Shown piece after piece: positions 2,240-24,029 of a stretch of DNA of 24,372 nucleotides; within the stretch, counting starts at the first letter, position 1; the number at the start of each line of letters is the position of its first letter. The DNA is taken from the IMG/VR virus record IMGVR_UViG_3300004369_000867, positions 1 to 24,372 of that record, one strand, 5' to 3'. The notes beneath the pieces are model-generated. The model saw only the letters and a program-made list of their open reading frames with translations, was not told the origin of the DNA and made no database searches. The position numbers and the translations under genes are program-made. Source of the DNA: a virus.

Positions 2240-3055
2240 ATGAGCGTTAAATGGAACATTATTGCTCCAGTTAAAAAGCCAGCAGATCTTGCCGGCATTG
2301 CCCCCGGCAAGTTGCCGGAAAGGTTGTTGAAGCCTGTTAAAGGTGGAGGCAAGTTGCACTGGAGAGCTGCTGCTGCTTGGGATGCAATGGTTGAGGCTGC
2401 AAAGGCTGATGGTCTTGAATTAAAGCCAACATCGTCTGGAGACACATATCGCTCATTTGAATCTCAACTTATGGCATTTAGACAAAGATATCAAAAAGAA
2501 CCAATTGAAGGTGCAAGTACAAGAACCTTTCAGGGAATTAAGTGGTATAAAAAATCACCAAAATTGGCGAGCCTTGCTGCGCCCGGTACCTCACAGCATA
2601 ATAGCGGATTGGCTGTCGATGTTCATAGCGCAGGTGAGCCAAAGAGGTTGAATTGGTTAATTGATAATGTTAGAAAATTTGGGTTTAGTTGGGAATTAGT
2701 TCCAGAAGAACCATGGCATTTGCGATACACCGAGGGTGACAATCCTCCCGCAGCTGTTGTTGAATATATTACAAAGACTGGTGGTGTAGCACCAGCCCAA
2801 CCAGCAACATCAGCCCCATTGCCAAATCAAAATAGAAAAAAAGAAGCAAAAGATTTGCCAGAAATTAGAAAAGGCTTTAAAGGTCGTGCTATTGTAAGAG
2901 CACAAAGGCTTCTTACCAGGCATGGTTTTGCATGCAGGCCTGATGGAGATTTTGGTCCTAAAACACAGGCTCAGGTTAAAGCATTTCAATTAAGTCGCGG
3001 GATTGAGCCATCTGGTGAAGTTAATCTTCTTACTTGGGAAGCATTGCTGAGTTAA
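2240..3055 (+). CDS. Endolysin: M15 (VanY-type) D,D-/L,D-carboxypeptidase with C-terminal peptidoglycan-binding domain
   Basis: 271 residues with the GAGGAGGAG ribosome binding site inside the preceding gene. The N-terminal catalytic domain shows the M15 zinc signature: SQHNSGLAVDVH gives ligands H120 and D127, and EEPWHLRY gives catalytic E157 and ligand H160; YRS with R71 fits the conserved substrate-binding arginine. After a Pro/Ala linker (about residues 184-200), residues about 207-271 (IRKGFKGRAIVRAQRLL ... GDFGPKTQAQVKAFQ) are a PG_binding_1 repeat. It is expected to cut the peptide stem of peptidoglycan at lysis once a holin opens the membrane. There is no signal peptide, which fits holin-dependent release. 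All key residues are present. Confidence 0.92.
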   Translation: MSVKWNIIAPVKKPADLAGIAPGKLPERLLKPVKGGGKLHWRAAAAWDAMVEAAKADGLELKPTSSGDTYRSFESQLMAFRQRYQKEPIEGASTRTFQGIKWYKKSPKLASLAAPGTSQHNSGLAVDVHSAGEPKRLNWLIDNVRKFGFSWELVPEEPWHLRYTEGDNPPAAVVEYITKTGGVAPAQPATSAPLPNQNRKKEAKDLPEIRKGFKGRAIVRAQRLLTRHGFACRPDGDFGPKTQAQVKAFQLSRGIEPSGEVNLLTWEALLS

Positions 3056-7448: not shown

Positions 7449-8027
7449 ATGGCAGTCAATGTTTCTAACATTGTCGTGGGTGAAGCAACCGTTAAGACGG
7501 GTGTTTCTAACATCGCAATGTCAAACAATGATTTTGATTCTCTCACAGATGTAGGCGCAACCAGTGGTGGCGTTGAAATCTCTTGGGAGCCAGACATGGT
7601 TGACATCGAGATCGACCAATACGGTGACGCAGCAAAAGTCATTCAGTCAAAAGTTAAGGTAATGGTTAAGACCACCCTTGCAGAAGGCACATTGAATAAC
7701 TTGGCTACGGCTTGGAGCTATGACAATTCAAATGGTGGTGCAGACATCCAGGTAAACAATGATGGTGCAAACACAAAGACATTGCTCTTCGGCACACAGT
7801 CGGTGAATCCATTCGAGTATGCTTTGCAAGTCGCAGGCAGCGCTCCTGGTACAACAGCATCGGTGACAAAATCACGTAAGTTTAATACAAAGCGTGCGGT
7901 GTCTTTTACATCGTCAATGCTTTCAATGAAGCGTGCTGAAGCCACAATGTTTGAGGTATCGTTCAGGGTTCTGCCCGTTACTGAAGACACTGGTTACGAG
8001 TACGGTAAGATCATTGATCAGACCTGA
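7449..8027 (+). CDS. Major tail tube protein
   Basis: 192 residues with a strong AGGAGG (7436-7441) 7 nt before ATG, as expected for an abundant virion protein. Beta-rich; begins MAVNVSNIVVGEATVKTGVS and contains DVGATSGGVEISWEPDMVDIEIDQYGDAAKVIQSKVKVMVKTTLAEGTLNNLATAW, the pattern of tail tube proteins (a GATSGGV segment, then strand-turn-strand with 'EIDQYG' and a helix). Its location between tail terminator and tail assembly chaperones, with the tape measure beyond, makes the identification firm. Codon choice looks smoother and more GC-rich than its neighbours, in keeping with high expression. Confidence 0.8.
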   Translation: MAVNVSNIVVGEATVKTGVSNIAMSNNDFDSLTDVGATSGGVEISWEPDMVDIEIDQYGDAAKVIQSKVKVMVKTTLAEGTLNNLATAWSYDNSNGGADIQVNNDGANTKTLLFGTQSVNPFEYALQVAGSAPGTTASVTKSRKFNTKRAVSFTSSMLSMKRAEATMFEVSFRVLPVTEDTGYEYGKIIDQT

Positions 8028-8850: not shown

Positions 8851-11800
8851 ATGTCTGATATTGATGTCATTATACGTGTACATACACAAGGTGTTCAAGA
8901 AATTGGAAACCTTAGCGCTTCGCTTAGAGGCCTTAGCACATCGTTGCGGAATATCAATGTTCCAATGTCAAAACTTGACACTAGCTCAAGAGCTGTATAT
9001 AAAGCGCTAGGGGTTACTTCTCGTGGCGTTGATAATCATGCAAAATCAATTAAGGAATTGGTTAGAAACCAAAGAGTTCTTGGAGCCGAAACCAAAAATA
9101 TTACAAGAGATTTAAACGGTTTAAGAAATGCTTACGCCTTGGCCGGAAAAGAATCTACATCCCTAGGTAGAGCTATTGGGGTCAGTGCCACCCAATTGTC
9201 TGGATTTTCAAGAACATTTCGGGGGATGCGACTAAGGGCATTCGGCTCAGATCTCAGCAGTATTTCTCTCAGGATGACCAAGCTTGGTAAAGATGCCCAG
9301 TTTGTGGGTAGAAGCTTGATGATTAACTTGACTTTGCCACTTGCAACATTTGCTCGGGTGGGGCTGCGGAGTTTCTTGGCAATAGAAAAACAACAGGTTC
9401 GGCTTGTTAAGGTTATGGAAAACTTGGCTAGCACTGCGGACATAGCGAGAGAAAAAATTCTAGGACTTGGCTCAACGGAAGCCCTAACGCCTGAGCAGGA
9501 AGTTCGTGCCAAGGGGATGGTTAAGTCCTTTAAGGATATGGATGATGCCCTCACCGCCTTGTCGTTAAAATTTGGTGTATCAAAAGAACTTACAACATCT
9601 TTAGCTGCTGACTTTGCTGAACTCGGTATAACTTCAGAAGAAAATGTTAAAAGCATTACAAGGCTTACCCTTGAGATTGAAAAACTCGGAAGCATGGATG
9701 TTGGTCCAGCGCAGGATTTGTCACAAGCTCTTTTCTTCCAGTCAAAGAGAGCATTTGAAGTCACTAGGGCATTTGAAAAACTGACAACGGCGCGGCAAAG
9801 AGAAGAGAAGGCCATCAAGTCTTCTATAACACAAATGTATTTATTCAATGCAATTGAAAACGCAACTGCATTAACGCTCGAAGATTTGGGCGATTCGTTT
9901 TCTGAAATTTCAGCCATGGCAGTAAGTTATGGTTTGTCAATGACAGAAGCAGCAGCCCTGCTTGCTCCAATGAAAGCGGCCGGTCTTGATGTTGGCGCTT
10001 CCGCCAACTCAATCAAGGTTTCACTCCAGAGATTGTTGGCTCCAACAAAACAAAATACTCAGGAATTGCAAAAACTTGCAGAGCGATTTGGGGTCGCAGG
10101 TGATGCGCAGAATGAATTTGCCATGTCAACAAAAACAGGTCTTGTTGGTCTTAGTGCCGTTGTCAAAATGTTTGATAGGGTAAGAAAATCATCGCAGGGC
10201 TCCGAGGGTGCTTTGCGATTGATGTCCGATTTGTTTGAAAAGCGCCAAGGGCCAAGAATGTATTTAGCAATTGAGCAGCTTGCTGATTTTAACAATGAAT
10301 TGGCAAGGGTAGATGATGAATTTGCAAATCTCAATGTTGAAACAGCAGAAGCAAGACTTGTTAGGGCAGCCGAGAGTGCTACTGGGGCATTTACAAATTT
10401 CAACACCACTGTTGTTCCTAAAACAATTAGATCTTTTCAGGATATTGGAAAAGTCGCAAGAATTGCTAGTGCTTTCGAAGGTCAAATAATTGAATTTGAG
10501 CCGGGGGTGGAAACAAAGATTACGACGCAAGATATAGCTAATGCAAAAGCAATGAGAAAGGCAGTTGCTGATACGGTTTTGGAAGCCAAGCGTCTAGAGG
10601 GAATAGACATTATTTCTGAAGTAAAAACCGAGTCTGGTAGAGCGTTAATGATCCAGCTTGCGGGTGCCACTAATGCTGCTGATGTTGCACAGCAAGAGTT
10701 GGCAAGAAGCCTTGCCACAGCAGGTGTCTCAATTGAGTCGCTAAAAACTACATTCAAAATGTTTGCTGCGGACATTGTATCTGGTTTAATGCCAACAATT
10801 AAAAGTCTTTCTGAGAGAGTTCAGCAAATGTATAATACATGGAATTCGGAAGACTTCGCACAAACACGACAAAATATAATTAGACTTATTACGGTTGTCG
10901 GTGGCATCTTGACAATCCTTGGTCCAATTACTCTTGCCGTTGGTACATTGCAATCAGTGATTGGTAAATTTGGATTGGTTATAAGTAGATTTGTTCCCAA
11001 ACTAAAAAATGTTGATGGAGAATTTACAAGGCTGGGGCAAAGTGCTCAATTTGCAAAAAAACAAATAAATGGTGTTTACGAAGCGTTTGTGCAAGCGGCT
11101 GGAATGAGAGCAACTGGAAATGCTCTCGCCGCCTCCCCCCCGCTCCCCACGGGTCTAGCCAGCCCTGCATTTGTTCCAAAAATGCCCGAGGCTGTAACTG
11201 CTGCAAGAAGAGCGCAGTTGATTGATCAACAAAAAAGAGAGGCGATGCGAGCAGCGGGCGTTACGGCTGCAGAAAGAAGAATGGCGCAAAAAGAATTTGC
11301 CGCCGGCACAAAGGCTCCAACAACTGGTGCTAGGGCCAGGGGTACATCTGGGAGATTTCTTCCAAGGAATGTTGTTGAGGGGTTAAGAATAATTGAGGCA
11401 AGTGAAGTTGCTCGCGTTACACCTACTGGCGTTGGCTCTAAACCATCAACTGGAAGATTTGCATCGCGCACCGAAGCAATGCTTGCTCCAATCAGAAGAC
11501 AAGAATCTGTATTTGCAAGAAGCCCATATCTTAAAGAAGCAGGTGTCTCTACTGATAGAATGGGAACTAGATTCATTCGTCGCGGTAGGCTCATTACAGA
11601 GGGGCAAGCTGATGATTTGGCTTTGGGTGGTTTAAGGGGTGTTAGAGGTCAAGCTGGCATACTTCGTGATAGATTAAGGAGTGGAATTAGAGCAATTCCA
11701 TCCCGCCCAGGCATTGCTGCCGCAAGGGCAGCAGCCGCCATAGCTCCATCAACTGGCGCAGGCGCTGTTAAGGGTGCAGCCGCTGGTATTAAAGCAAGCA

Positions 11801-14800
11801 CGGTAGCCATGGCCCAAAATATGAGTTCCGTCAAGGGGGCAAAGGATGCGATGGCAGCCCTCAATGCTCAGTATGGCGCTTTTGGTGAAAAACCGGGAAT
11901 AATAAAGAAGATGTCAACTGCGATGCTGGGCTTTGTTAAGAATCTAAAATTTGCAACCCTTGCTGCAAGAATTTTCAAAATGACTCTAATGTTTAGTGGT
12001 GTTGGAGCAATAATTGCAGTTGTTGCGGGCATTATATACTTGGTAGTTCAAAATCTTGACAAAATTAAAGGCTCCGCAAAAGTTATGGAGCCACTGAAGA
12101 GAGCCTTCACTGCTGTAAAAGATGCAGTATTCATGATGATTAGGCCAATTCAAGATTTGTTTGGCATGTTTGGATCAGGGGGAGATGAGGGTGCAAAAGC
12201 TGGCAATGCGATTGTAAAAGCATTTGAAGGTATGGCTGCGGCAGTTGAATTCGTTGCTGGTTTATTTAAAGTTTTTGTTGAAAAGGTAATTCAGCCGTAT
12301 CTCTATGGAATAGTAAATATAGTTATGGCTGTTGTTTCAATGTTTAAAGGTAATTGGGGGGATGCTTTTAATTTCTTGCTTGCAGGTGTTGGGTCAGTAG
12401 TTAAGGGAGTTATTAATCTCTTTATTGGGTTGGGATCTGGCATAATATCAATTATCGCTAAGGCGATAACAATGGTTCTTGATGTTTTTGGGAAAATCCC
12501 AATTATTGGCGGCGTATTCAGATTAGCAAGTAAGGGAGTTAATGCTCTTGCAAATGGCGCAAAATCTGTTCTTAAAACCGTTGGTGGCTTTGCCACTGGG
12601 CAACTAGATAAAATAATTGACAAGGGCGTAAAAAAGAGCAAAAACGCAATACAGAAGGGCAAGAAGCCAATAGTCGATACAGCAGAAGATATTGGAGAAG
12701 ATGCTGGTGAGGCTATTTCAAATGCATACGGTAACGCTGATATGGATAGTGCCAGCGATAAAATCAAGAAAAAAATTAAAGAAGGCTTAGCGGATAAAGC
12801 CCAAGAACTTTACGATTATGTTGTTGAAAGATTTTCAAGTTCAATAAGTAAATTCGTTACTGAAAGCGTTAAGGCTCTTAATAAGCAAAAGGAAGCTGCT
12901 CTTAAAGTCTTTGATATTCAAATTAATACACTCGTAAAGCTTGAAAAAGCAGAAGAGTCGCTGACTAGAGCAAAAGAGTATGAAACTAACAGAAGAAAAC
13001 TTATTGATGACGCTGCTCTCCGTCAACAAAATTATGTACGCGATCGTGCACTTGCTATTTATGAAGGTCGTGTTGACGATGCCAGAATTCTAGATCAAGA
13101 AGAGCGGGTTGCGTCTAGGGAGTCCGATTCAGAAATTGCAACACTTGATCAGGGTAGAAGAAAAGATCTCGCTAAGGAAAACCTTGAATCCTTAAAGGAT
13201 GCAATTAAAGATGCACAAGAGGTTGCTGGTAGATTTTTTGATGAATCAATTGAGAAATTCCAAGAAGCAGCTGCGCACATTACCAGAATAGCTCCAGTTA
13301 CACAAGAGCAGTATGCTGCTCAGCTTGAAGAACTCCGATTGAAGACAGTTGAATACTCAGACAAAAACAATCTAGAGTTCGGAGCAATGTTTGAAAAGTT
13401 TGCTACAACAATAACTGATAGGATGCCAAATACGGTTGACCAGTTTGGGGTGGCACTGGGGGCTTTTGCTACTCCACTTGATGAACTTGTGACTCTTGCT
13501 ATGAACAAATATGGTTTAGGCTCGGAGTCTGATAATACCCTTTTGGGTGTTACCAAGCAGATGTCTGATTCAGTCATTGGTATAACACTTGGAATGCTGG
13601 TTGACATTGGTGATACGTTTACGACAGCAGCCCCAGCAGTCGTAGAGCAGTTTGGTGATGTTACTGGTGGAATTACCGGAGAGATTGGCACATTCAAGAC
13701 TGAAGCGCTCGGATTGTTTACAACACTTCTTTCAGAAGTAAAACTTGAGTTTATTACGCCTTTCCAAAAAGCTCTTGATGAAGCTGAGCCAACAAAAGTA
13801 TTTAATGAGGCAATAATTGATGGCAATGAAGAAATCTTAAACAGCTTTAGAAAGATTCTTGCACTCAATCCCGATTTGATGGACAAGATAAGTAAAAGCT
13901 TGGACCCAGCAATTAAAAAATATCTTGCCCTGCAAGCTGCTGCTGAGGCTGCAGCTGATGCAATGAATAATGCTGGCGGTGCCCCTCCTGGTAATTATAC
14001 TGACGTTTATGCTGGGATGGATGCCGAAACCCGGCGATTTGCCAGAATCAAAGAGGGCATTGACGCAAACATACGCACTTCCTTGATGAGCCAGGGCGAT
14101 TCGTATTCAAGAAGATTAGCGCAGTCGGGTAATTTCCAAAGAATATATGAAAATAGAAATACTGAATTACTCAACAAGTTACCCATTCAGATACGAAATC
14201 GTGCAAATGCTAACCCTTTGAATCGCGAAGTTGGTGGTCCAATTCCAAAAGGTGGTGTATTGGGTGCAGACGGGATGGGTGTTACTGGCTTCCTGAATGC
14301 TCCAACAACTCAAGGGATTCCTGCAATTCTACATGGTGGGGAGTTTGTTATTAATGCAGAAGCTGTCAAGAGAGTTGGCCTTGGTGCATTGGCAAAGATT
14401 AATGACTCAAGAATTCCAAAGTTTAAGAAGGGTGGATTTGTGGGTGCGCCAGATCGGGTGGAAAGAATGGCGCTCGCTAGAAAAAAAGAAAAGGCGATGA
14501 ATTTTGCAACTGCGTCTGTTGGGAATTTTAAAAGAGCTGTTGAGAGAGCAGAGGCTCCAGTTAAAGATACAAGAAGTTTTAAACAAAAAACTTTTGATGT
14601 TGTTAAAGGTCTTGGAATGGTTGCTAAAAATGCTGCGGGGGGTGCCATTAGTCAATTTAGTAAAATTGGAGCACAAGATGGCTTAATTGATAAGTTGACA
14701 AGATTTGATAAATCAAGTGTTGATCTAATAGCGGGTGGCATTGGAAGATCCGGCAAAATATTAAAAGGGGCATATAGCAATGTCCTTTTGCCAATAGCAG

Positions 14801-17800
14801 AAAGTTTTAATGCTACTTTTATAAATCCTGCTATCAATACTGGCGGAAGACTTATTGGTAAAAAACCAAACCTTCGTCAAGCCGGGATGGTTGAGAGTGC
14901 CATGAATATAGCCGATGTCGTATCAACAGTTTTCACCCTAGGTGCAAGTAAAGTCGCTACAACCACTGGTAAGGCTACATTAACTGCAGTACTGAGAGAG
15001 GTGGCAAAAGGATCTGTAAAAACATCGGATGAGATGATGGCTCAAAAATTGGTGACGATGGGGATGTCAGGAAAATTCCCCACAATGGCTTCACAATTAA
15101 CGCCAAGCAATTTTGGTATTGATGCAACATCCTTTAGACCAAAAGCTCCAATAAGAGATGTTCGTATGGTTATTCCTCAGCAACTTGCTCTTCCGGCTGG
15201 TCCACGAATAGGTAAAAATCTGCCTGCTGTAATTCAACGACCACTTAACATAAAAACTGAAAAAGTGCTTGGTCGTTCTGTTCTGCCTGAAGATTTTGAT
15301 CGCCTCGGCTTTCTTTTCTCCGATAGTTCCGAACAATTTATCACTCAAGCAAAAGGCGGGTATATTCATGATATTTTAGGCGAAAAAGTCGGATTTGGAT
15401 TAAGTGATGATTTATTAAAAAATGTTCCGACTTTAAGAGGGGTTCAAAATATTCCTTTAAACCCCCTTGATATTACTGGGACATCAAAAACCGGTCAAGA
15501 TGCCGTTAGTACGGTAAGCGGATGGCTTGAAGCGCACGTTGGGTATGCATCTAGAGGCGGTGATGTTCATGATACATATGTATCAGCACTCCTGCACGCC
15601 GCCTCAGTAAAAAAGAATCTTCAGGCTCAGCTTGAATATGTCAATTTAATGCTAGAAGGAAGAAAGGCGACAGCCATGAAAGCCGCTCGGTTGAATACGC
15701 CTGAGATTATTAGCGAAGGCAATCTGCTGGCCATTCAAAGGGATCCTCGGATGAAGAACTTGAATTTTGATAAGTTGATGGCTGTTCACGAAACATCATA
15801 TCCATTTGAAATAGATGAAATTGGTGATGCCATTTTGCGTCCAACAAGTGACTATATAAAAATTCCGACAAGTGATGGTGAAGAAATCTTCAGAGACACA
15901 GTTCATTTTGCATTAAATCACGTTGTGAAGCCAATAGCAAATAGATCAAGTGTACCTCGTGAAACAGGTCGGCTAATAGCCATTAAATTAAAAGATCTAA
16001 TTGATGCCAACCCCATGGCAGTTGAAAATATAATGGGTGTAGACACATATTTTACTCCAAGACCTGGTGAGGGGATCAGGTTCCCTGCTGGCAAGTATGA
16101 AATTCTTGATTACAATAATCTGCCAGTTCAGGGCTACACTGGTGAACAGGAGCAAAGGCTAAACGAGATTTTTGGGAGATTACAAGGGCTTGATATGCGT
16201 GAATACATTCCTGGTGAGAGCATGGAGGAGTCTATAGAAAATGGTTGGCGGACAATCATACACAGGTTAAGACTTGAACCAGACGTTGGTGGTCACGGGT
16301 TGGATGATTCTGTGCAAACGGGCGCTGTTTGGAATGCTATAAGTGGTTTTAGACAAGCACAGGAATATTCTATAAGAATGGGAAGGCATTTTGATGACCA
16401 GGTTTTGGGCACATATTCTGTTACAAAAAACTTTGCTAAAGGACAAATGCCCGGTTTCAGAGATGACCCATACGGTTTTAAATATTTGCTCAACTCGTTT
16501 GGTGAAGCAAGTCCTAATGCCTTTGCAAGAATAATTGGAAGAGACCCTTTTATGCAAGCAGGCACCATCCCTATGGAAAATCCTGCGCTGAATGCAAGGA
16601 TTGTAAGAATTATGAAAAGGATACAGAAGGAATACGTTATGAGAAATAGCATGGGACCAATCGAAATGCCAGCCGCTTCTGTTCAGGATGCAATGCTGCC
16701 AGTTACCAGAAGAAGTGCTGATTCAATTGCGTATGTCAGAGATGCCGACCCATTAGATCTCATGGGGAACACCCCATTTACCCCTCCAGTAATTAAACCT
16801 CCTCTTGCGGCTAGAAGCTTCAGCGAGCAGATGGAAGTCTTTAGAGCCCTTAACGGCTTGGCTAGTGCTAAAAATGCGCCACTCCGGCCCTATCAGCAAA
16901 CACTTATTGAGGAGTACACAAATACCTTCAATAAACTCTTGACCTTGAGGGCGCTTGATTTGTCTGGGAATAAAGTTGGTCTTGAAGCCTATGTTGCCAG
17001 AGTTGGGAAACTGTATGGAGCCGATGGCAGCTTTGGTCATCCAATTAAACCAAATTCAGGCATACCACTCATGGAACGGATGGAAGCTGCGGGGTTGTTT
17101 AGTGGTTCTTTGCGTTTTGCCGATGTTCTTGATAATCCAGAAATTCAGCAAATGATAGATGTCTTGATGAGGGATACGAATCAAGCAATGAGGGCTGGTT
17201 CGGTTGTGTATCCGGAAAATATTGAAACCTATCGTGGTCTATCCCTATTGGCTCCAGTAGACGATCCCAGAAAGTATTTGGATCACCTATATAGACCGGG
17301 GTACACGCTTCCTGGTCAGTATGCATCAACATCCGTCAACGAAGAAGTTGCTAAAAGTTTTTCAAGTGGTCCTCTCCTTAAGTCCACCAATCCATACTCC
17401 TCGACATACGAAACAATCCCAATCTTGGAGCATATCACTATTCCAAAAGGCAATGAAGTTTTTTCGCCAAGTTATTACGGTCTAGGATTGCAAAATGAAA
17501 GAGAAATTATTATACCTCCAGCATACAGATTAAGAGTTGATGATATTTTAGAGCCAGATGCTGGTGGAAATGGATATTTTAGAGTCCAAGCAACTGCAGT
17601 AAAGGCTGCTGCTATGGCTGGCTTAGGGGGAGTCGGTATTGTTGGGGCATCAATGATCCCCACCCCAAGCCAAGCGCAAGCAATGACCGCTGACACAATG
17701 GAAAGGGTGCAAAATCAAAAAATTGCCTATTATGAATCGGTTAGGCGCTTGAATGAATTTATTGCGGGTGGAGAAACAAACAATGTTTCTGATCCATACA

Positions 17801-18618
17801 ACGCAATACATTCACGCATGGAGCCAGTAGCCGATTTGACATCCATGACAATACGGCAAGCTATTGATTTTGCAAACCAATTTAAATTAAGCAATACGGA
17901 GAGTTCTGGAGCAATTGGTAAGTATCAAAATATTCCGAAGTACCTAGGCGACAGAGCTCGCCTTGCTGGATTTAGTCTAGATAGTCTCTATGACGAAAAA
18001 ACTCAAGAACTTATTGCTCAATCTTTTCTACTGAAATCTCTTGGTGGCAATGGCATAGGTCTTGAAAATTATTTGAGTGGTAGAAAATCTCAAAAGTATA
18101 TGATAGATAGAATTGCAAATATCTATCGTGGCATGCCAGGATCAGATGGTCGGTTCGTGGGCGGAGGGGGCAATAAAACAGGTTCCGACCTCAACATGTT
18201 GGGGAATCTTAAAAATTATCTAACCGCAGTCAAATCATTTTATATGCCGGGGTTCAAAGAAGGTGGCTTTGTTGGTGGAATGCCATCAACGGCAATCCCA
18301 GCCATGCTTCATGGTGGCGAATATGTAATTAATGCCAAAGCGGTTCAACAACTTGGATTGCCGTATCTCAATGCAATGAATCAAATTAGCCAATCACAAT
18401 TTAGACCGCCATCTTCAAGGGTCAATGCTCCAACTGGGGCCGTAACAAATAATGTCAGTACTGTAAATATCCAAGTTGAAAACTTTGTTGGGGAAGAAGC
18501 TTGGTTTGAATCAATGATGGAAGAATACAATATCAATGTCTTACCAAAAAATCAAAAACTTGCTGGTTTAGAAAAGAGAAGATTTTCAACCTACAACGGG
18601 ATTAATCAAGGTCTATAA
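8851..18618 (+). CDS. Giant tape measure protein with embedded ADP-ribosyltransferase and muramidase domains
   Basis: 3255 residues, unusually long for a tape measure (most are under 2000). Residues 1-560 are a TP901/lambda-type core (MSDIDVIIRVHTQGVQEI start, long helices, VSYGLSMTEAAALLAPMKAAG). Gly/Ala-rich linkers occupy about 750-1020; membrane-type segments lie near 1041-1070 and 1144-1230 (GVGAIIAVVAGIIYLVV and following), as expected for a protein that inserts into the host membrane at ejection; charged helices at about 1278-1475. A typical tape measure end motif, IPAILHGGEFVINA, occurs at about 1823 and again at about 3149 (IPAMLHGGEYVINA). Between them lie an unrecognised domain (about 2090-2560), an ADP-ribosyltransferase (about 2735-2905), a hydrophobic AQA-ending segment (about 2918-2944), and a lambda-lysozyme-like muramidase (about 2970-3130). 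It sets tail length and is ejected into the cell. The next gene starts on its stop codon. Confidence 0.9.
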   Translation: MSDIDVIIRVHTQGVQEIGNLSASLRGLSTSLRNINVPMSKLDTSSRAVYKALGVTSRGVDNHAKSIKELVRNQRVLGAETKNITRDLNGLRNAYALAGKESTSLGRAIGVSATQLSGFSRTFRGMRLRAFGSDLSSISLRMTKLGKDAQFVGRSLMINLTLPLATFARVGLRSFLAIEKQQVRLVKVMENLASTADIAREKILGLGSTEALTPEQEVRAKGMVKSFKDMDDALTALSLKFGVSKELTTSLAADFAELGITSEENVKSITRLTLEIEKLGSMDVGPAQDLSQALFFQSKRAFEVTRAFEKLTTARQREEKAIKSSITQMYLFNAIENATALTLEDLGDSFSEISAMAVSYGLSMTEAAALLAPMKAAGLDVGASANSIKVSLQRLLAPTKQNTQELQKLAERFGVAGDAQNEFAMSTKTGLVGLSAVVKMFDRVRKSSQGSEGALRLMSDLFEKRQGPRMYLAIEQLADFNNELARVDDEFANLNVETAEARLVRAAESATGAFTNFNTTVVPKTIRSFQDIGKVARIASAFEGQIIEFEPGVETKITTQDIANAKAMRKAVADTVLEAKRLEGIDIISEVKTESGRALMIQLAGATNAADVAQQELARSLATAGVSIESLKTTFKMFAADIVSGLMPTIKSLSERVQQMYNTWNSEDFAQTRQNIIRLITVVGGILTILGPITLAVGTLQSVIGKFGLVISRFVPKLKNVDGEFTRLGQSAQFAKKQINGVYEAFVQAAGMRATGNALAASPPLPTGLASPAFVPKMPEAVTAARRAQLIDQQKREAMRAAGVTAAERRMAQKEFAAGTKAPTTGARARGTSGRFLPRNVVEGLRIIEASEVARVTPTGVGSKPSTGRFASRTEAMLAPIRRQESVFARSPYLKEAGVSTDRMGTRFIRRGRLITEGQADDLALGGLRGVRGQAGILRDRLRSGIRAIPSRPGIAAARAAAAIAPSTGAGAVKGAAAGIKASTVAMAQNMSSVKGAKDAMAALNAQYGAFGEKPGIIKKMSTAMLGFVKNLKFATLAARIFKMTLMFSGVGAIIAVVAGIIYLVVQNLDKIKGSAKVMEPLKRAFTAVKDAVFMMIRPIQDLFGMFGSGGDEGAKAGNAIVKAFEGMAAAVEFVAGLFKVFVEKVIQPYLYGIVNIVMAVVSMFKGNWGDAFNFLLAGVGSVVKGVINLFIGLGSGIISIIAKAITMVLDVFGKIPIIGGVFRLASKGVNALANGAKSVLKTVGGFATGQLDKIIDKGVKKSKNAIQKGKKPIVDTAEDIGEDAGEAISNAYGNADMDSASDKIKKKIKEGLADKAQELYDYVVERFSSSISKFVTESVKALNKQKEAALKVFDIQINTLVKLEKAEESLTRAKEYETNRRKLIDDAALRQQNYVRDRALAIYEGRVDDARILDQEERVASRESDSEIATLDQGRRKDLAKENLESLKDAIKDAQEVAGRFFDESIEKFQEAAAHITRIAPVTQEQYAAQLEELRLKTVEYSDKNNLEFGAMFEKFATTITDRMPNTVDQFGVALGAFATPLDELVTLAMNKYGLGSESDNTLLGVTKQMSDSVIGITLGMLVDIGDTFTTAAPAVVEQFGDVTGGITGEIGTFKTEALGLFTTLLSEVKLEFITPFQKALDEAEPTKVFNEAIIDGNEEILNSFRKILALNPDLMDKISKSLDPAIKKYLALQAAAEAAADAMNNAGGAPPGNYTDVYAGMDAETRRFARIKEGIDANIRTSLMSQGDSYSRRLAQSGNFQRIYENRNTELLNKLPIQIRNRANANPLNREVGGPIPKGGVLGADGMGVTGFLNAPTTQGIPAILHGGEFVINAEAVKRVGLGALAKINDSRIPKFKKGGFVGAPDRVERMALARKKEKAMNFATASVGNFKRAVERAEAPVKDTRSFKQKTFDVVKGLGMVAKNAAGGAISQFSKIGAQDGLIDKLTRFDKSSVDLIAGGIGRSGKILKGAYSNVLLPIAESFNATFINPAINTGGRLIGKKPNLRQAGMVESAMNIADVVSTVFTLGASKVATTTGKATLTAVLREVAKGSVKTSDEMMAQKLVTMGMSGKFPTMASQLTPSNFGIDATSFRPKAPIRDVRMVIPQQLALPAGPRIGKNLPAVIQRPLNIKTEKVLGRSVLPEDFDRLGFLFSDSSEQFITQAKGGYIHDILGEKVGFGLSDDLLKNVPTLRGVQNIPLNPLDITGTSKTGQDAVSTVSGWLEAHVGYASRGGDVHDTYVSALLHAASVKKNLQAQLEYVNLMLEGRKATAMKAARLNTPEIISEGNLLAIQRDPRMKNLNFDKLMAVHETSYPFEIDEIGDAILRPTSDYIKIPTSDGEEIFRDTVHFALNHVVKPIANRSSVPRETGRLIAIKLKDLIDANPMAVENIMGVDTYFTPRPGEGIRFPAGKYEILDYNNLPVQGYTGEQEQRLNEIFGRLQGLDMREYIPGESMEESIENGWRTIIHRLRLEPDVGGHGLDDSVQTGAVWNAISGFRQAQEYSIRMGRHFDDQVLGTYSVTKNFAKGQMPGFRDDPYGFKYLLNSFGEASPNAFARIIGRDPFMQAGTIPMENPALNARIVRIMKRIQKEYVMRNSMGPIEMPAASVQDAMLPVTRRSADSIAYVRDADPLDLMGNTPFTPPVIKPPLAARSFSEQMEVFRALNGLASAKNAPLRPYQQTLIEEYTNTFNKLLTLRALDLSGNKVGLEAYVARVGKLYGADGSFGHPIKPNSGIPLMERMEAAGLFSGSLRFADVLDNPEIQQMIDVLMRDTNQAMRAGSVVYPENIETYRGLSLLAPVDDPRKYLDHLYRPGYTLPGQYASTSVNEEVAKSFSSGPLLKSTNPYSSTYETIPILEHITIPKGNEVFSPSYYGLGLQNEREIIIPPAYRLRVDDILEPDAGGNGYFRVQATAVKAAAMAGLGGVGIVGASMIPTPSQAQAMTADTMERVQNQKIAYYESVRRLNEFIAGGETNNVSDPYNAIHSRMEPVADLTSMTIRQAIDFANQFKLSNTESSGAIGKYQNIPKYLGDRARLAGFSLDSLYDEKTQELIAQSFLLKSLGGNGIGLENYLSGRKSQKYMIDRIANIYRGMPGSDGRFVGGGGNKTGSDLNMLGNLKNYLTAVKSFYMPGFKEGGFVGGMPSTAIPAMLHGGEYVINAKAVQQLGLPYLNAMNQISQSQFRPPSSRVNAPTGAVTNNVSTVNIQVENFVGEEAWFESMMEEYNINVLPKNQKLAGLEKRRFSTYNGINQGL
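14317..14403 (+). repeat. Tape measure end motif, copy 1
   Basis: Encodes 29 residues (1823-1851) beginning IPAILHGGEFVINAEAV and ending AKIN. It shares 18 of 29 residues with the copy at 18295-18381. The phrase HGGExVI is commonly found near the C-terminal end of phage tape measures. A GGFVG box follows shortly after (within 14418-14453). Confidence 0.8.
15769..16110 (+). other. Uncharacterised domain inside the tape measure, with VHETSYPF / VHFALNHVV / DTYFTPRPGEG motifs
   Basis: Residues about 2307-2420 carry three well-defined segments: VHETSYPF (H2313, E2314), RDTVHFALNHVV (H2352, N2356, H2357) and VDTYFTPRPGEGIRFP (D2398). The dense His, Asp, Asn and Arg content differs from the low-complexity Gly/Ala/Ser regions of the tape measure and suggests a folded, perhaps catalytic domain. 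I do not recognise a named family and assign no function. Confidence 0.45.
17050..17560 (+). other. ADP-ribosyltransferase (R-S-E class) domain in the tape measure
   Basis: Residues about 2735-2905. YRGLS gives R2795, ASTSVNEEVAKSF gives the STS motif (S2826-T2827-S2828), and QNEREIIIPPAYRLRV gives the ExE motif (E2883, E2885), followed by the usual I-I-P-x-x-x-x-x-R-V end strand. This is the ordered signature of arginine-directed mono-ADP-ribosyltransferases (VIP2/C3-exoenzyme-like fold, also phage T4 Alt and Mod). These enzymes move ADP-ribose from NAD+ to a protein residue. The strand preceding the third motif (ILEHITIPKGNEVFSPSYYG) also fits. Target is unknown. Confidence 0.8.
17761..18240 (+). 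other. Lambda-lysozyme (gpR)-like muramidase domain in the tape measure
   Basis: Residues about 2971-3130. IAGGETNN places E2975 like the catalytic Glu of lambda endolysin (SEGTDN); SGAIGKYQNIPKYLGDRARL parallels lambda TGAGRYQLLSRWWDAY; then YDEKTQELIAQSFLL parallels the SPKSQDAVALQQI helix and DRIANIYRGMPGSDGRF the CSNIWASLPGAGYG segment. Lambda R is a lytic transglycosylase (GH104). In a tape measure such a domain would open the host wall locally during DNA entry. The comparison is from memory of the lambda sequence. Confidence 0.7.
18295..18381 (+). repeat. Tape measure end motif, copy 2
   Basis: Encodes IPAMLHGGEYVINAKAV and following residues (3149-3177), preceded by FKEGGFVGG (18253-18279), which echoes FKKGGFVGA after copy 1. 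This copy is in the usual place, near the C-terminus. Confidence 0.8.
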
Positions 18619-19035: not shown

Positions 19036-20100
19036 ATGTCAGAGTTTGGATTCTATTCATTTTCAGAACCGTTTGGTATTGACTTTAATACTCCTGATGA
19101 AGCAATCGGGGCGGTTTCATCAATTGTTATTGAATCAAATGCTGTAATTAATATTACAAAGATAGCATTTGCGAACCTATCTGTTTCTGTAGATAGCGAT
19201 GCTTCCATTGTTGCTAGAAGAATAATTCACGCGCAATCAGAAATTATTGTAGATGGAGCAACATTAACTCTTGGTACCAGAGTTAAGTTGGCTTCTATTG
19301 CAATATCGATAGCATCTAATGCGGTTGTTGAATCTGAAAAGATTGCATTTGCATCAACTGAAATTTCAGCGAACTCGAACCTTTCCGCTACAGGAATGAG
19401 ATTTGCCACAGCGTCATCGTCTATTGAATCAAATTCAGATGTGTCTGCTTCAATGATAAAAGAAGCAATGGCATCTGCATCAATAATTGCATCAAGCAAT
19501 ATGTCCATAGTGGCAACTAGGATAATGACAATCGCATCCAGTATTAGCAGTAATGTCAATATTGCGGTTCTTGGTAGAATATCATTAATAACAGCAAGAA
19601 TAGTTATTTTCAACAACTCTTCAATTACTGCTCAAACAATTAAATTTAGCAATTCAGCAATAACAGATTTGTCGGTTATTAGATCACTGCTTATGCTTGA
19701 TGGTGTGCCGTTAACAAATCAAAATAGAAAATTTGCTGTTGATGCAACTCCTATCTACATACAGAATCTTAACTGGCAGGGTGATGCTTCAAGATACTAT
19801 AAGAATGCATCGGCAAACTCAGGGGCAAAACGGGTATTTAACTTGCAATGGTCATTTATTCCAAATTATGAAAATAAAACTGTGGATTTAAGAGCTTCAA
19901 GAAATTATTTGAATACAAAATCCAAGGATGGCGATGTTCACACCCTGACAATCATTAAGCAAGACGATAGTGGTACATCGCCGTATACGGAAGAAAGCGT
20001 GGATGTCCTAATAACTAATTATTCAGAAAATCTAATCCGAAGGGACTTGGTTAGTGATGTATACTATTTTGATTGCACAATGTCGCTGCAGGAGGTCTAA
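19036..20100 (+). CDS. Tail-tip protein with about nine 20-residue beta repeats and a Dit-like C-terminal domain
   Basis: 354 residues, starting 1 nt after the previous stop. Residues about 27-211 are roughly nine 20-residue units of the form S-I-x-x-x-S-N-x-x-V-x-A-x-x-x-K-x-A-x-A, for example SSIESNSDVSASMIKEAMAS, predicted to form a beta-rich solenoid or extended stalk. Residues about 213-354 are homologous to the whole preceding protein, sharing the NQNRKF/HNRRFD start and the YSEnLiRRDl end. The repeats appear added to a duplicated ring subunit, giving a ring protein with a protruding arm. Ser/Ala/Ile richness is unlike the neighbours. The opposite-strand frame at 19227-19616 is a shadow of the repeats. 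Confidence 0.65.
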   Translation: MSEFGFYSFSEPFGIDFNTPDEAIGAVSSIVIESNAVINITKIAFANLSVSVDSDASIVARRIIHAQSEIIVDGATLTLGTRVKLASIAISIASNAVVESEKIAFASTEISANSNLSATGMRFATASSSIESNSDVSASMIKEAMASASIIASSNMSIVATRIMTIASSISSNVNIAVLGRISLITARIVIFNNSSITAQTIKFSNSAITDLSVIRSLLMLDGVPLTNQNRKFAVDATPIYIQNLNWQGDASRYYKNASANSGAKRVFNLQWSFIPNYENKTVDLRASRNYLNTKSKDGDVHTLTIIKQDDSGTSPYTEESVDVLITNYSENLIRRDLVSDVYYFDCTMSLQEV

Positions 20101-23100
20101 TGATAACAATTGATCAATACGGCAAAGACTTGTCATCCGATTTTAATACAGCCATTGCGTCAAAAGCTCAAAAAATAAAACCAAAAGTTATTGTAACTTG
20201 GCTAGATAGTCGTCACCTTGACAACTTGGTTGTTACTACAAACGATCCCCACGCAAACTTAAGTTATCCGAACATAGGATTCTATTTCCAGCCATCACAG
20301 GCTGCCAATGGTGTTGAAAAACAATCTTTTACATGGGGCGTTGCCGGTGCAAAAGATGTTAATGGTCATGTTATTAAATCAGATGGAACTTGGTACACAA
20401 TGCCATCTTTAACAACATCGGATCTATCCAACACAAGACTGGACGGAACCCTGGAGTTTGGATGGTGGTCTGGAAGTGTCAGCAACAGCACTGCCCACAA
20501 TTCATATACCGGTTATGGTTTTGCTACAGATCCCTATGTCGATTTAGCCTTCACATCAAGAAAAGTCAACAAGATAAGAGTTGTCACATCTCAATATTAT
20601 GGTCAGATAAGTGACTATACACTGCAAGCTTACGACAGCTCGCTTAATCTTGTAACCTCCCAGTCGGGTTCTATTCAGAATGATTCTTATTATACCGATC
20701 ATATCCTTAGTAGTGCGCTTTCAACACAAAACATTGCAAAGATAAGAGTTACTGTCCACAGCACCAAGAATTCACAAGACTACGCTCGAATTCAAGAGGT
20801 CGTTCCAATTTTTGAGCAAGATATGAGTGATTATGTCATATCTGTGAGTGCTAATAGAACACGCGATGTCCATTCAACAAGTTTGCCAATTGGAGGAAGC
20901 GAAACATCCTCTGCAAGTATTCGTTTTGATAACACAACAAAGAAATTTAATATCTTTGACAGCAGCTCTGAGTTTGGTCAATATATGAAAAAAGATATAG
21001 AGGTTAATATCTACAGTGGTTGGAGAATAAAGAAACCTTCTGATGCAAACCTTGACGATGTATATTTAACAACTTTTTTAACTGCAAATGCAAACTCTAG
21101 CGCCACAACTCTGCTAGTAAACGATCTTTCGGTCTTTCCAGCGGGCGGTAATGGAAATCATTTTACTGTAATACTGGATAAAGGAAATCAGTCTGAAGAG
21201 ATTATTCTATGCTCAGGAACAACATCTCCAAATATTTTAAATGTTGTTTCTCGAGGATATAGTGATACTTCTTCAAAGTCTCATACTTTGGAATCATCTG
21301 TTTCGTTTGAAATTTATGAATATGTAAAGAATGGAACCTTTTATGTCGATGAATGGGGCTCCCAGAGTTCGGACATGACCGTTAGTGCCTCAATGCAGGA
21401 CTGGACAAAATATTTAAATGAAAAAAGTATTAAGTATGGCTTTCTAGAAAGTAATGCATATGCTGGTGATGCAATCGAGGCCTTGCTGTTGCGTGCAAAC
21501 TTTCCAAAGTCAGATATTTATAAATTAAATAAATACTCCAAGGGTGCTCTTTTATCTGGCGCAATTGCTGGTTATTCATTTGATGAAGACACAATTGACA
21601 GAAGTGGAAACAGCATAGTTCCATCAACTGGTCTCCGGGCTAGATTTTGGGGTATGCCTTCAAACAAAAGAGACATATCCGTAAAAGATATTCAGGCTGA
21701 TGCCCTTGATAAACAACTAACAAAGCTTGATTTAGCACTTGGTCAAACAAAATTTATAAGTCCGTCATTTACTACTCTATCTAAAAACATATCTTCCAGC
21801 CCATCCAACGCTGTTCAATTGGTTGATTACTCTTTTACCGGTACCAATTCAACAGTTTACACTGATTATTACAATGGCGTTTTTGATGGCTATTATATCC
21901 CAAGATCAAGTGGTAATCAAACAATAGTTGTCAATATAACAGGTGGCGGTGTTAGGGTCTATCTTGATGATGCAATAATACTTAACAAATTTAGAAATCA
22001 TGAATCAAATACTCGGCTTGAGAGCTCCACAGTTAATCTAACAGCAGGGGTTCCAAGAAAGATACGGGTTGAATTTTTTCATCCCGAAAACAATGGCGCA
22101 TCTCCAAGTTTTAGAATTTCTCTTCTCAAGAATGTCGGTGGCTCTGATGTAATTATAACAGCAGATGAGTGTACGACTATTGCGCCATCTGACTCAATAG
22201 GGGTACGCAACGGCCCCACAACACTAACATCGCAGGATCCTTATCTTATGAGAAATAATGGTGTCTATATTAACAACCCCAAGCTTTCTCAAACAACTGG
22301 TCTCGTTTCAGATCCAGAAGATACATCCGTGCTCCTTGAATCAAGTGCTTATATTAGAATACCAAACCATCAAAGCATTAATGTCGTTAATGCAAACTCA
22401 ACCCTTTACACAGGAGAGTGGTCTTTTGAGTTCTACGGTAAATTCAATAACGGCTCATTTAGCGATGATGGGGAATATATAAGCAACTGGGCAAATGCGA
22501 CTCCGACATCTGGTTTTGAATTCTTTAATACATCTGCCTCAAATGGCTTTAAGATAAGAACACTGTCTAACTCCTCAGTAATTACCGAGACGGTTTCTTC
22601 AAACACCGCCTTGTCAAGTAGTGAATTTTCTCATGTTTTTGTTACTTTTGATGAAACCAAAATGTACTACTATGTAAATGGCGATTTAAAAGCAAACACA
22701 ACCCTCGTTGGAACTCCAATCGCATTTGCTAATGATATAACAATTGGTGGGCGTGGAGCATCGTATACAGCCAATGTAGGCGAGGTTGCTCCGTCAACAA
22801 TTAGAAGCTTTATCGTTGATGAATTTTACATATACAATAGTAGCCTTGATGCATCACAAGTTAAAGACAGATATATCGAATCACAAATTCAACCATTAAC
22901 AAAATTTGCATTTCTCTATGGAAATGATCAAACAATAAAACAAATAATTGATGATATTACATTTGCCGAGCTAGGTCGGTTGTATATCAATGAACTTGGT
23001 CAAGCAAAGTATGAGCACTATTTTAGATTTTTTGAACCATCAATTCCCCAGCATTCAAATATTCAATCAACAATTAGTGATTCTAATTTTATAATTGATG

Positions 23101-24029
23101 CTGGATTTTCTGTACAGCTTCAATGCAATAAAGTTACTATACCCCTGTCAGGAATCCAGAAGGGGACTGGTAGTAGGCAGCAGCTGTGGGTTGCTGAAGA
23201 GGACACCACTCTTGCCACGGTTGAGTTGTCTGCGAATCTAACATCAAATGCAAATGTGGTATTCTTTTCATCCAATACAGATATTCCATTCCCCAGTGCC
23301 GGACTTATAAAAATTGGTAGTGAAATTATAAAATACAATAGTAGAACAGGTAACTCTTTCACTAATCTGGAAAGGGGGCAATATCAAACAGTGGCAGCAT
23401 CGCACACTATTAACAACGGTAATGCATCAAAGATTAGAGAGACCAAGTATTACAATGTCACTTTCCAGAAAGCACCCGCGTTTAATGTTGATAGCCCATT
23501 TATAACTGCAATACGGATTGAAGAGCCGGATCTTATTGAAATTCACAAGTATTTACCATACCCCTATGGTGCTGAATTAATTGTCGCTGCCTCCAATACG
23601 GCCCCAGTAGGAAAGATTGTTTTTCTTCAAGGGGTTGATAGAGAGACACAATACCGTTTTGCAACATCTATTGCTGGTCAGGCAGTTGAGACAGCCGAAA
23701 ATAATTCTGATATTAAAACCCAATCGTCCAGCGTAAACGAGAGCATTAAGAAATATGGATTAAAAGACATTACAATTGAAAGCGAATTTATCAATGATGC
23801 AGTCCATGCTCAAAAACTTGCTGATTTTATAATTAGCAAAACTCAGATACCCGTCCCAATCCTGAATGTCAATACGATCATTATGCCAAAAATTCAACTC
23901 GGGGATCGGATAAGGATATCCAATATAACTTCTCTTGGCATTGTAAATACTGATTATTGGGTGCTATCATATAGTAGGTCTATTGGAGATAGTTTTTCAC
24001 AGCAAATGATTGTAAGGCAGGTTTCTTGA
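20100..24029 (+). CDS. Large baseplate/tail-tip protein with discoidin-like, PA14-like and LamG-like carbohydrate-binding modules
   Basis: 1309 residues from ATG 20100, which overlaps the previous stop and has GGAGG at 20091-20095; the TTG at 20073 is rejected. Residues about 154-244 look like a discoidin/F5-8-type module (KVNKIRVVTSQYYG ... YTLQAYDSSLNLV). Residues about 508-678 resemble PA14 (LRARFWGM ... GVFDGYYIPRSSGNQTIVV ... GGGVRVYLDDAIILNKF). Residues about 746-927 resemble LamG/concanavalin-A (IRIPNHQSINV ... WSFEFYGKF ... SHVFVTFDETKMYYYVNGDL). A small domain occurs twice (about 336-401, EEIILCSG...VVSRGYSDT...KSH, and about 1051-1106, SEIIKYNS...LERGQYQTV...ASH). The C-terminal 300 residues look like a tail hub domain. 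Probable role: tail tip hub that also binds host surface glycans. Confidence 0.7.
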   Translation: MITIDQYGKDLSSDFNTAIASKAQKIKPKVIVTWLDSRHLDNLVVTTNDPHANLSYPNIGFYFQPSQAANGVEKQSFTWGVAGAKDVNGHVIKSDGTWYTMPSLTTSDLSNTRLDGTLEFGWWSGSVSNSTAHNSYTGYGFATDPYVDLAFTSRKVNKIRVVTSQYYGQISDYTLQAYDSSLNLVTSQSGSIQNDSYYTDHILSSALSTQNIAKIRVTVHSTKNSQDYARIQEVVPIFEQDMSDYVISVSANRTRDVHSTSLPIGGSETSSASIRFDNTTKKFNIFDSSSEFGQYMKKDIEVNIYSGWRIKKPSDANLDDVYLTTFLTANANSSATTLLVNDLSVFPAGGNGNHFTVILDKGNQSEEIILCSGTTSPNILNVVSRGYSDTSSKSHTLESSVSFEIYEYVKNGTFYVDEWGSQSSDMTVSASMQDWTKYLNEKSIKYGFLESNAYAGDAIEALLLRANFPKSDIYKLNKYSKGALLSGAIAGYSFDEDTIDRSGNSIVPSTGLRARFWGMPSNKRDISVKDIQADALDKQLTKLDLALGQTKFISPSFTTLSKNISSSPSNAVQLVDYSFTGTNSTVYTDYYNGVFDGYYIPRSSGNQTIVVNITGGGVRVYLDDAIILNKFRNHESNTRLESSTVNLTAGVPRKIRVEFFHPENNGASPSFRISLLKNVGGSDVIITADECTTIAPSDSIGVRNGPTTLTSQDPYLMRNNGVYINNPKLSQTTGLVSDPEDTSVLLESSAYIRIPNHQSINVVNANSTLYTGEWSFEFYGKFNNGSFSDDGEYISNWANATPTSGFEFFNTSASNGFKIRTLSNSSVITETVSSNTALSSSEFSHVFVTFDETKMYYYVNGDLKANTTLVGTPIAFANDITIGGRGASYTANVGEVAPSTIRSFIVDEFYIYNSSLDASQVKDRYIESQIQPLTKFAFLYGNDQTIKQIIDDITFAELGRLYINELGQAKYEHYFRFFEPSIPQHSNIQSTISDSNFIIDAGFSVQLQCNKVTIPLSGIQKGTGSRQQLWVAEEDTTLATVELSANLTSNANVVFFSSNTDIPFPSAGLIKIGSEIIKYNSRTGNSFTNLERGQYQTVAASHTINNGNASKIRETKYYNVTFQKAPAFNVDSPFITAIRIEEPDLIEIHKYLPYPYGAELIVAASNTAPVGKIVFLQGVDRETQYRFATSIAGQAVETAENNSDIKTQSSSVNESIKKYGLKDITIESEFINDAVHAQKLADFIISKTQIPVPILNVNTIIMPKIQLGDRIRISNITSLGIVNTDYWVLSYSRSIGDSFSQQMIVRQVS

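Follow-up and report, generated by a model that had tools for sequence, protein, structure and literature searches.

The stretch of viral DNA analysed here comprises 24,372 nucleotides (positions 1 to 24,372 of IMG/VR record IMGVR_UViG_3300004369_000867; hereafter the window) and contains a tape measure protein (TMP) gene that encodes a predicted ADP-ribosyltransferase (ART) domain of the Arg-Ser-Glu (R-S-E) class. The open reading frame (ORF) was identified as a TMP by its family matches and its position among tail genes, scoring 35.4 bits against PF10145 (cut-off 33.2) and finding its best PHROG match in phrog_5448 ('tail length tape measure protein', E 2.3e-26). Comparison with related viral contigs, numbered from L001, divided the protein into a conserved body, an inserted cassette and a conserved C-terminal tail (C-tail). 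The features of the gene are listed below.

8851..18618, plus strand: TMP gene, a single open frame of 3255 residues
8851..14457, plus strand: conserved TMP body, residues 1-1869, delimited by alignment with shorter TMPs
14329..14349, plus strand: first LHGGEFV copy (protein motif), residue 1827, the body-side boundary of the cassette site
14458..18255, plus strand: inserted cassette, residues 1870-3135 (about 1270 residues), delimited by comparison with relatives
15115..16680, plus strand: residues 2089-2610, common to the TMP of L003 at 63%, L003 being without the ART
15880..16110, plus strand: conserved domain without an assigned family, residues 2344-2420, preceding the ART here and in L001 (38.6% to L001)
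17041..17625, plus strand: predicted ART domain, residues 2731-2925, from profile, profile-profile and fold comparisons
17233..17235, plus strand: R2795 of the YRG motif (Y2794-R2795-G, from 17230), kept in L001 and L016
17326..17334, plus strand: S-T-S, residues 2826-2828
17497..17505, plus strand: E2883-R-E2885 (ExE)
17722..18150, plus strand: endolysin-like domain, residues 2958-3100 (phrog_90 endolysin, E 1e-7)
18256..18615, plus strand: conserved TMP C-tail, residues 3136-3255, with the second LHGGEYV copy at residue 3153 (from 18307)

An earlier note, made from the sequence of the window, had proposed an ART on the basis of three ordered R-S-E motifs, and these were found intact and exactly where it had placed them (R2795, STS 2826-2828 and E2883/E2885). 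Such motifs alone constitute modest and not decisive evidence, because, when the whole TMP was shuffled 2000 times, a loose form of the ordered pattern arose in 8 cases. A hidden Markov model (HMM) was built from ten external ART domains, drawn from unrelated loci of other viral contigs and including no TMP sequence. This model matched the domains of the window (E 8.3e-7) and of L001, while none of 200 shuffles of the domain was matched, nor was the reversed domain. As the external loci had been reached through a DNA pattern for ExE, four of the ten domains are biased for that motif; the remaining six are additional domains encoded at two of these loci. A profile-profile comparison of the window, L001 and L016 domains with the ten external ARTs gave a probability of 96.9% (E 1.4e-10), with YRG, STS and ExE in register. 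The arginine, STS and ExE are therefore ordered and aligned as in the R-S-E ARTs of PF03496 (ADPrib_exo_Tox), and all are retained both in L001, whose domain is 85% identical, and in L016, at 32-33%. Across a 13-row ART alignment six columns were invariant (S2826, F2837, P2865, G2867, E2883 and E2885 in window numbering), and the motif arginine was present in 11 of the 13 domains, those of L096 and L097 having YSG. A PDB sequence search with this alignment retrieved Vip2 at 1.5e-26, a value that is partly circular because ten of the rows are plain ARTs, and the case for homology consequently rests on the profile-profile comparison and the external HMM. The same search with the two TMP sequences only gave an E-value of 0.042.

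Agreement was also seen at the level of predicted structure. An AlphaFold2 model of residues 2731-2925, calculated from the 13-row alignment, had a predicted local distance difference test score (pLDDT) of 73.7 and a predicted template modelling score of 0.70. Foldseek matched the model to solved structures of Vis (E 2.2e-7), Certhrax, C3bot and VIP2 (1qs2, 7.7e-7) with a probability of 1.00, and in VIA-align the Z scores were 11.1 for C3bot and 11.0 for Vis, 143 of 996 chains reaching at least Z 8. CDTa was, like Certhrax, among the structural matches, and both the Foldseek and VIA-align lists included anthrax lethal factor, which we take to carry a VIP2-like domain. Among predicted viral structures, the best 50 of 338 matches included Alt, modA, modB, VIP2-like, head and portal proteins, and none of these 50 was named a tape measure protein. 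The modelled domain thus appears to belong to the ART fold, and the ART identity put forward earlier was borne out by concordant sequence, profile-profile and fold comparisons. A chance motif match was rejected on the strength of the two homology tests. It is almost certain, from sequence comparison, that TMP residues 2731-2925 are homologous to R-S-E ARTs, and it is judged very probable that the domain is an active enzyme.

The position of the domain within the TMP was examined by a survey of related proteins, in which 23 distinct contigs with a strong C-tail match, recruited via the C-tail, the next gene or the cassette, were compared. A further 64 weaker loci (L026-L089), matching mainly around the LHGGE motif, were excluded from the count, and three contigs (L001, L006 and L010) were too short for the cassette site to be judged, leaving 20 spanning contigs. 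Thirteen of these have no cassette and a single LHGGE(Y/F)V copy (L004, L005, L007, L015, L017, L018, L019, L020, L021, L022, L023, L024 and L025, of which L019, L020, L024 and L025 are more distant), and the window body, as residues 1-1864 or 1-1869, aligns with the shorter TMPs of L005, L015 and L021-L023 at 42-52%. The remaining seven (L003, L008, L009, L011, L012, L013 and L016) carry one or two cassettes between two or three copies of the motif. These figures count contigs and not lineages, because several of the contigs almost duplicate one another, as do L008 and L009, which share 99.6% identity across 14.9 kb. The TMP body, ART, endolysin-like domain and C-tail lie within one ORF in L016, and in the partial contig L001 a single ORF, at 82% to the window, encodes the last three of these parts. 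In the window protein itself, sequence resembling L003 gives way to sequence resembling L001 at residue 2610/2611. The earlier suggestion that the enzyme was placed in the ruler itself was therefore not upheld, as the domain occupies a swappable cassette that follows the conserved body and lies upstream of the endolysin-like domain; the idea that the ART is a piece of the ruler body was rejected, since it is part of an insertion between body and C-tail. Protein and alignment queries of viral contigs for other ART-bearing TMPs returned L001 and L016 (as L090) only, and a DNA-pattern scan returned eight stretches, namely L001 and L016 (L094, L101) and six with other ARTs, of which L096/L099 and L097/L098 form alike pairs; a scan of genomes gave two matches, both rejected as ARTs on inspection. 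No further ART-bearing TMP was found when an HMM of the TMP-borne ARTs was run over the ORFs of at least 60 residues of the collected loci.

Evidence for cassette exchange was obtained from L009 and L011, which belong to different IMG records. Upstream of the cassette, their DNA is 97.5% and 97.2-97.3% identical over blocks of 3671 and 2727 bases, ending shortly beyond the first LHGGE copy, and downstream it is 99.7% identical across 10,260 bases, starting just before the second copy. Between these flanks no blastn match of at least 100 bases (E 1e-10) was detected, and the two cassettes gave no blastp match at 1e-5. As the flanks are near-identical and the cassettes unrelated, the cassettes have been swapped as blocks at this site in the TMP, and the high identity of the flanks indicates that the replacement was recent. 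The cassette site is not the sole variable place in the gene, because a second unaligned stretch (L009:3672-4422, about 750 bases, and L011:4400-5033) lies within the TMP body between blocks of about 97%, corresponding approximately to window residues 780-996. No strong DNA repeat was found at the ends of the window cassette, the LHGGE copies being alike in protein only.

The cassettes of L011 (7761-9633), L013 and L003 (4736-8095) contain metzincin-like zinc-protease motifs (HExxHxxxxxH/D with the Met-turn SIM), which in L011 and L013 take the form HExxHxxxxxH with SIMDY. Weak family matches were obtained for L011 only (Reprolysin_5, E 0.028; TIGR03296, E 0.0054, far under cut-off), and no zinc-protease motif was found in the window cassette. 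A third cassette type (L008:2452-4725, L009:6969-9242 and L012:7436-9688) carries a domain with an HGGP motif to which no fold was assigned; the L009 and L012 cassettes are related at 50%, and the N-terminal part of those of L008 and L012 is weakly DUF6861-like (E 7e-5 and 1e-4, under cut-off).

In the window, one TMP combines the ART with the endolysin-like domain and the conserved domain without a family. The L016 counterpart of the endolysin-like domain matched phrog_90 at E 4.9e-9; no Pfam or NCBIfam match was found for the window domain, and a PDB sequence search returned nothing meaningful. The domain at 15880-16110 contains the motifs RDTxHxxLNHxV and DTxFxP, is also present in L003 and might be another effector; it had no Pfam, PHROG or PADLOC match, and its best PDB match had an E-value of 0.31. 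Between the window and L001, the ratio of nonsynonymous to synonymous substitution (dN/dS) was lowest in the C-tail (0.036), followed by the ART core (0.42) and the ART domain as a whole (0.48), and it reached 0.69 in the linker with the endolysin-like part and 0.75 in the stretch preceding the ART. Judged by these sequence ratios, the ART is under loose constraint, as would suit either an effector or a less strongly constrained module. A simple hydropathy scan placed hydrophobic segments in the body only (residues 679-711, 1048-1066 and 1146-1223). Read from the C-terminus, the order of parts is a tip anchor, the endolysin-like domain, the ART, the conserved domain without a family, the membrane segments and the ruler.

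The interpretation that we favour, with somewhat better than even confidence, is that the cassette encodes a virion-borne effector, that is, an R-S-E mono-ART (VIP2/Alt/C3-like) carried in an exchangeable C-terminal cassette fused into the TMP, so that the ruler may also serve to carry an injected effector. In solved structures the TMP C-terminus is placed in the tail tip, and the release of TMPs as an envelope channel has been proposed or cited in the published accounts (PMC13033339, PMC10721106), behaviour with which delivery at infection fits by analogy. From such published TMP biology, the C-terminal end at the tail tip would leave first, the endolysin-like domain would help passage of the wall, the TMP body would form a channel, and the ART would reach the cytoplasm, where NAD (nicotinamide adenine dinucleotide) is available. 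There, as expected from its enzyme class, it would ADP-ribosylate a host protein at an early stage of infection, possibly on arginine, the acceptor suggested by the ExE form. Of these steps, delivery of the ART at infection is considered probable by analogy, and action on a host protein is given an even chance or slightly better. If this is correct, a tail ruler would deliver a protein-modifying enzyme ahead of the phage DNA, unlike head-packaged Alt or MuF fusions, and phage TMPs would be linked to the TMP-related effectors of contractile injection systems.

A number of results weigh against this interpretation. In the search against ART families, PF03496 exceeded its cut-off of 23.4 bits with the L001 domain (24.8 bits, E 1.5e-5) but remained under it with that of the window (18.9 bits, E 0.001), and a search with the full-length TMP did not list the family at E-values up to 1. 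The L016 domain alone gave no Pfam match at 0.1 and was not matched by the external HMM at E up to 10, being tied to the ARTs via its similarity to the window domain, and no match for the ART domain was found in PHROGs or NCBIfam, or with PADLOC. The good structural model was built on an alignment that included the ten other ARTs, so that its fold match is partly alignment-dependent, and a three-sequence alignment (269 residues) reached a pLDDT of only 35.7. The dN/dS of the ART core is far laxer than that of the C-tail. Only one of the seven cassette-bearing spanning relatives (L016) carries the ART, in addition to the window and L001, and no pair of near-identical phages showed an exchange of the ART cassette. 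In the account of siphophage Douge, the tail lumen measures about 35 Å and the TMP is trimeric (PMC13033339), dimensions into which folded ARTs would fit poorly and which would require the cassette to be extended or to refold after ejection; a similar extended or refolding passage is proposed for a TMP-like effector by the authors describing Sle1 (PMC13277306). Finally, the ART homology and fold, the unbroken TMP ORF, the presence or absence of cassettes at one site and the exchange in other members of the group were computed here; catalysis, presence in the virion and injection are proposals drawn from sequence and analogy.

It is also conceivable, although unlikely, that an active ART works late in the producing cell, as part of freshly synthesized TMP that is not yet or never packaged, and modifies tail proteins, the TMP itself or host factors, for example, with nothing delivered. 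TMPs are synthesized in the cytoplasm, where NAD is present, and nothing found here places the domain in a virion or target cell. However, the same body and C-tail occur without a cassette in most of the spanning contigs, so that assembly probably does not depend on one, late action could equally well be provided by a free-standing gene, and the adjoining endolysin-like domain suits entry over assembly. Alternatively, the ART fold could have been kept as a non-catalytic binding or spacer module tolerated in the TMP. The ART core ratio of 0.42 is not strict and long cassettes are tolerated at the site; a spacer, though, would not need the arginine, STS and ExE that are all retained in L016 at 33%, and this explanation is considered quite unlikely.

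The ART might instead act at the envelope, outside the cytoplasm, where it could, for instance, modify surface proteins and so exclude competing phages. Published TMPs do reach the envelope in the accounts cited above, and the domain belongs to the C-terminal portion, which is the end found at the tail tip in the solved cases. NAD, however, is scarce outside the cell and no surface target is indicated by the sequence, making such action improbable. Least credible is an origin of the TMP-ART fusion through metagenome assembly, or of the ART through chance motif matching. The join of L003-like and L001-like sequence at residue 2610/2611 could be read as an artefact, but L001 and L016, which derive from other IMG records, have the same order of ART, endolysin-like domain and C-tail in one ORF and the homology tests were strong, leaving this explanation largely refuted and extremely improbable.

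Taking the exchange of cassettes together with the virion-borne effector interpretation, the TMP of this phage group could be viewed as a general plug-in effector carrier, consisting of a ruler body and a tip anchor between which modules (the ART, the metzincin-like protease and other domains) are swapped at a site marked by LHGGE(Y/F)V, with the first protein into the cell serving as a weapon and the order of domains being the order of delivery. This broader proposal is a tentative one, to which we give a little less than an even chance as a whole. L009 and L011 appear to provide a clear example of domains being exchanged recently in TMPs; a 2023 survey reports that domain exchange could not be confirmed for TMPs (PMC10684548).

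Several known systems resemble parts of the arrangement. T4 Alt, described as packaged in the virion and injected with the DNA (PMC5512222), is likewise an R-S-E ART, as are ModA and ModB, and proteins named Alt, modA and modB were among the fold matches of the window domain; Alt, however, is a separate protein in the head, whereas the window ART is a domain within the ORF of a tail TMP and not a separate head-packaged protein. VIP2-like ARTs fused to a structural protein are described as MuF-VIP2 fusions in Microbacterium phage Percival and Stenotrophomonas phage AXL1 (PMC7302621, PMC9206674), and injection has been proposed for MuF toxins as a class (PMC5576092), but the carrier there is a head or portal-side protein and not a TMP. 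TMP-like cargo with a functional, exchangeable C-terminal domain is described for Tme of Streptomyces davawensis and Sle1 of S. lividans (PMC11126660, PMC13277306). These are TMP-related carriers of an exchangeable enzyme domain, but they belong to bacterial contractile systems and bear endonuclease or deaminase-like domains, whereas in the window the tail gene cluster appears to be viral, the domain is an ART and the cassette is flanked by the body and the C-tail. The earlier note had considered an enzyme carried by the TMP to be a distinct delivery route, which would hold in comparison with head-packaged Alt and MuF fusions but not with regard to TMP-related carriers, for which Tme and Sle1 are precedents.

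An enzymatic motif within a phage TMP is also found in mycobacteriophage TM4, where motif 3 is reported to aid infection of stationary cells and to count towards tail length (PMC1796659); like the Rpf-like motif 1, it differs in being a peptidoglycan hydrolase acting on the wall and not a protein-modifying effector. The polyvalent proteins, as described by Iyer et al. (2017), are similarly long and predicted to be injected, and combine ART, lysozyme and other domains, but their ARTs belong to the HYD2 clade. No report of an ART inside a phage TMP was found in those parts of the literature that were searched. Virion ARTs, muralytic TMP motifs and TMP-related exchangeable carriers in contractile injection systems are thus known, and the apparently new element is the predicted R-S-E ART cassette in a phage TMP. 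In a collection of 50,697 annotated phage records, no match was found for the window ART, its L016 relative, the upstream domain (residues 2344-2420) or one external ART. Three other ARTs matched 26, 38 and 43 records, which overlap, and no matched feature in these three surveys was named a tape measure protein, some being hypothetical or unannotated. In some mycobacteriophages, VIP2 genes are located near the terminase.

Some of the external ART loci have unusual architectures of their own. L095 encodes, on the complement, a single ORF of 1916 residues with five R-S-E-like ART domains separated by eight copies of a KH(A/G)DHDQS(D/E)HGxWA linker, and L100:2-2617 encodes three such domains, also in a single ORF. 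L096 and L097 each have a second ART-like ORF about 4-5 kb further on the same strand, the aligned one having YSG.

The genes surrounding the TMP gene of the window are consistent with a tail cluster. The upstream ORF at 7449-8024 matched an Ig-domain family, phrog_2175 (E 1.2e-24), and gave weak matches to major tail families (E 1.5e-5). Downstream of the TMP gene are three ORFs alike in size and order to those of L001, L003 and L016, the first of which has 92% identity to its L001 counterpart and no PHROG match. Two genes after the TMP, a large protein (20073-24029) with PA14 and laminin-G/lectin-like domains is likely a glycan-binding tip protein. The TMP itself contained no cysteine in six counted regions covering 3027 of its 3255 residues. 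An M15 peptidase (VanY) with a peptidoglycan-binding domain, probably an endolysin, is encoded at 2240-3055; because its best PHROG match is a tape measure family (phrog_16823, E 1.6e-38), a wall hydrolase of this kind may occur inside some TMPs. At the start of the window, an open-ended ORF (2-1696) is, by eye, highly enriched in threonine and in Glu-Pro repeats and has a hydrophobic segment close to its C-terminus.

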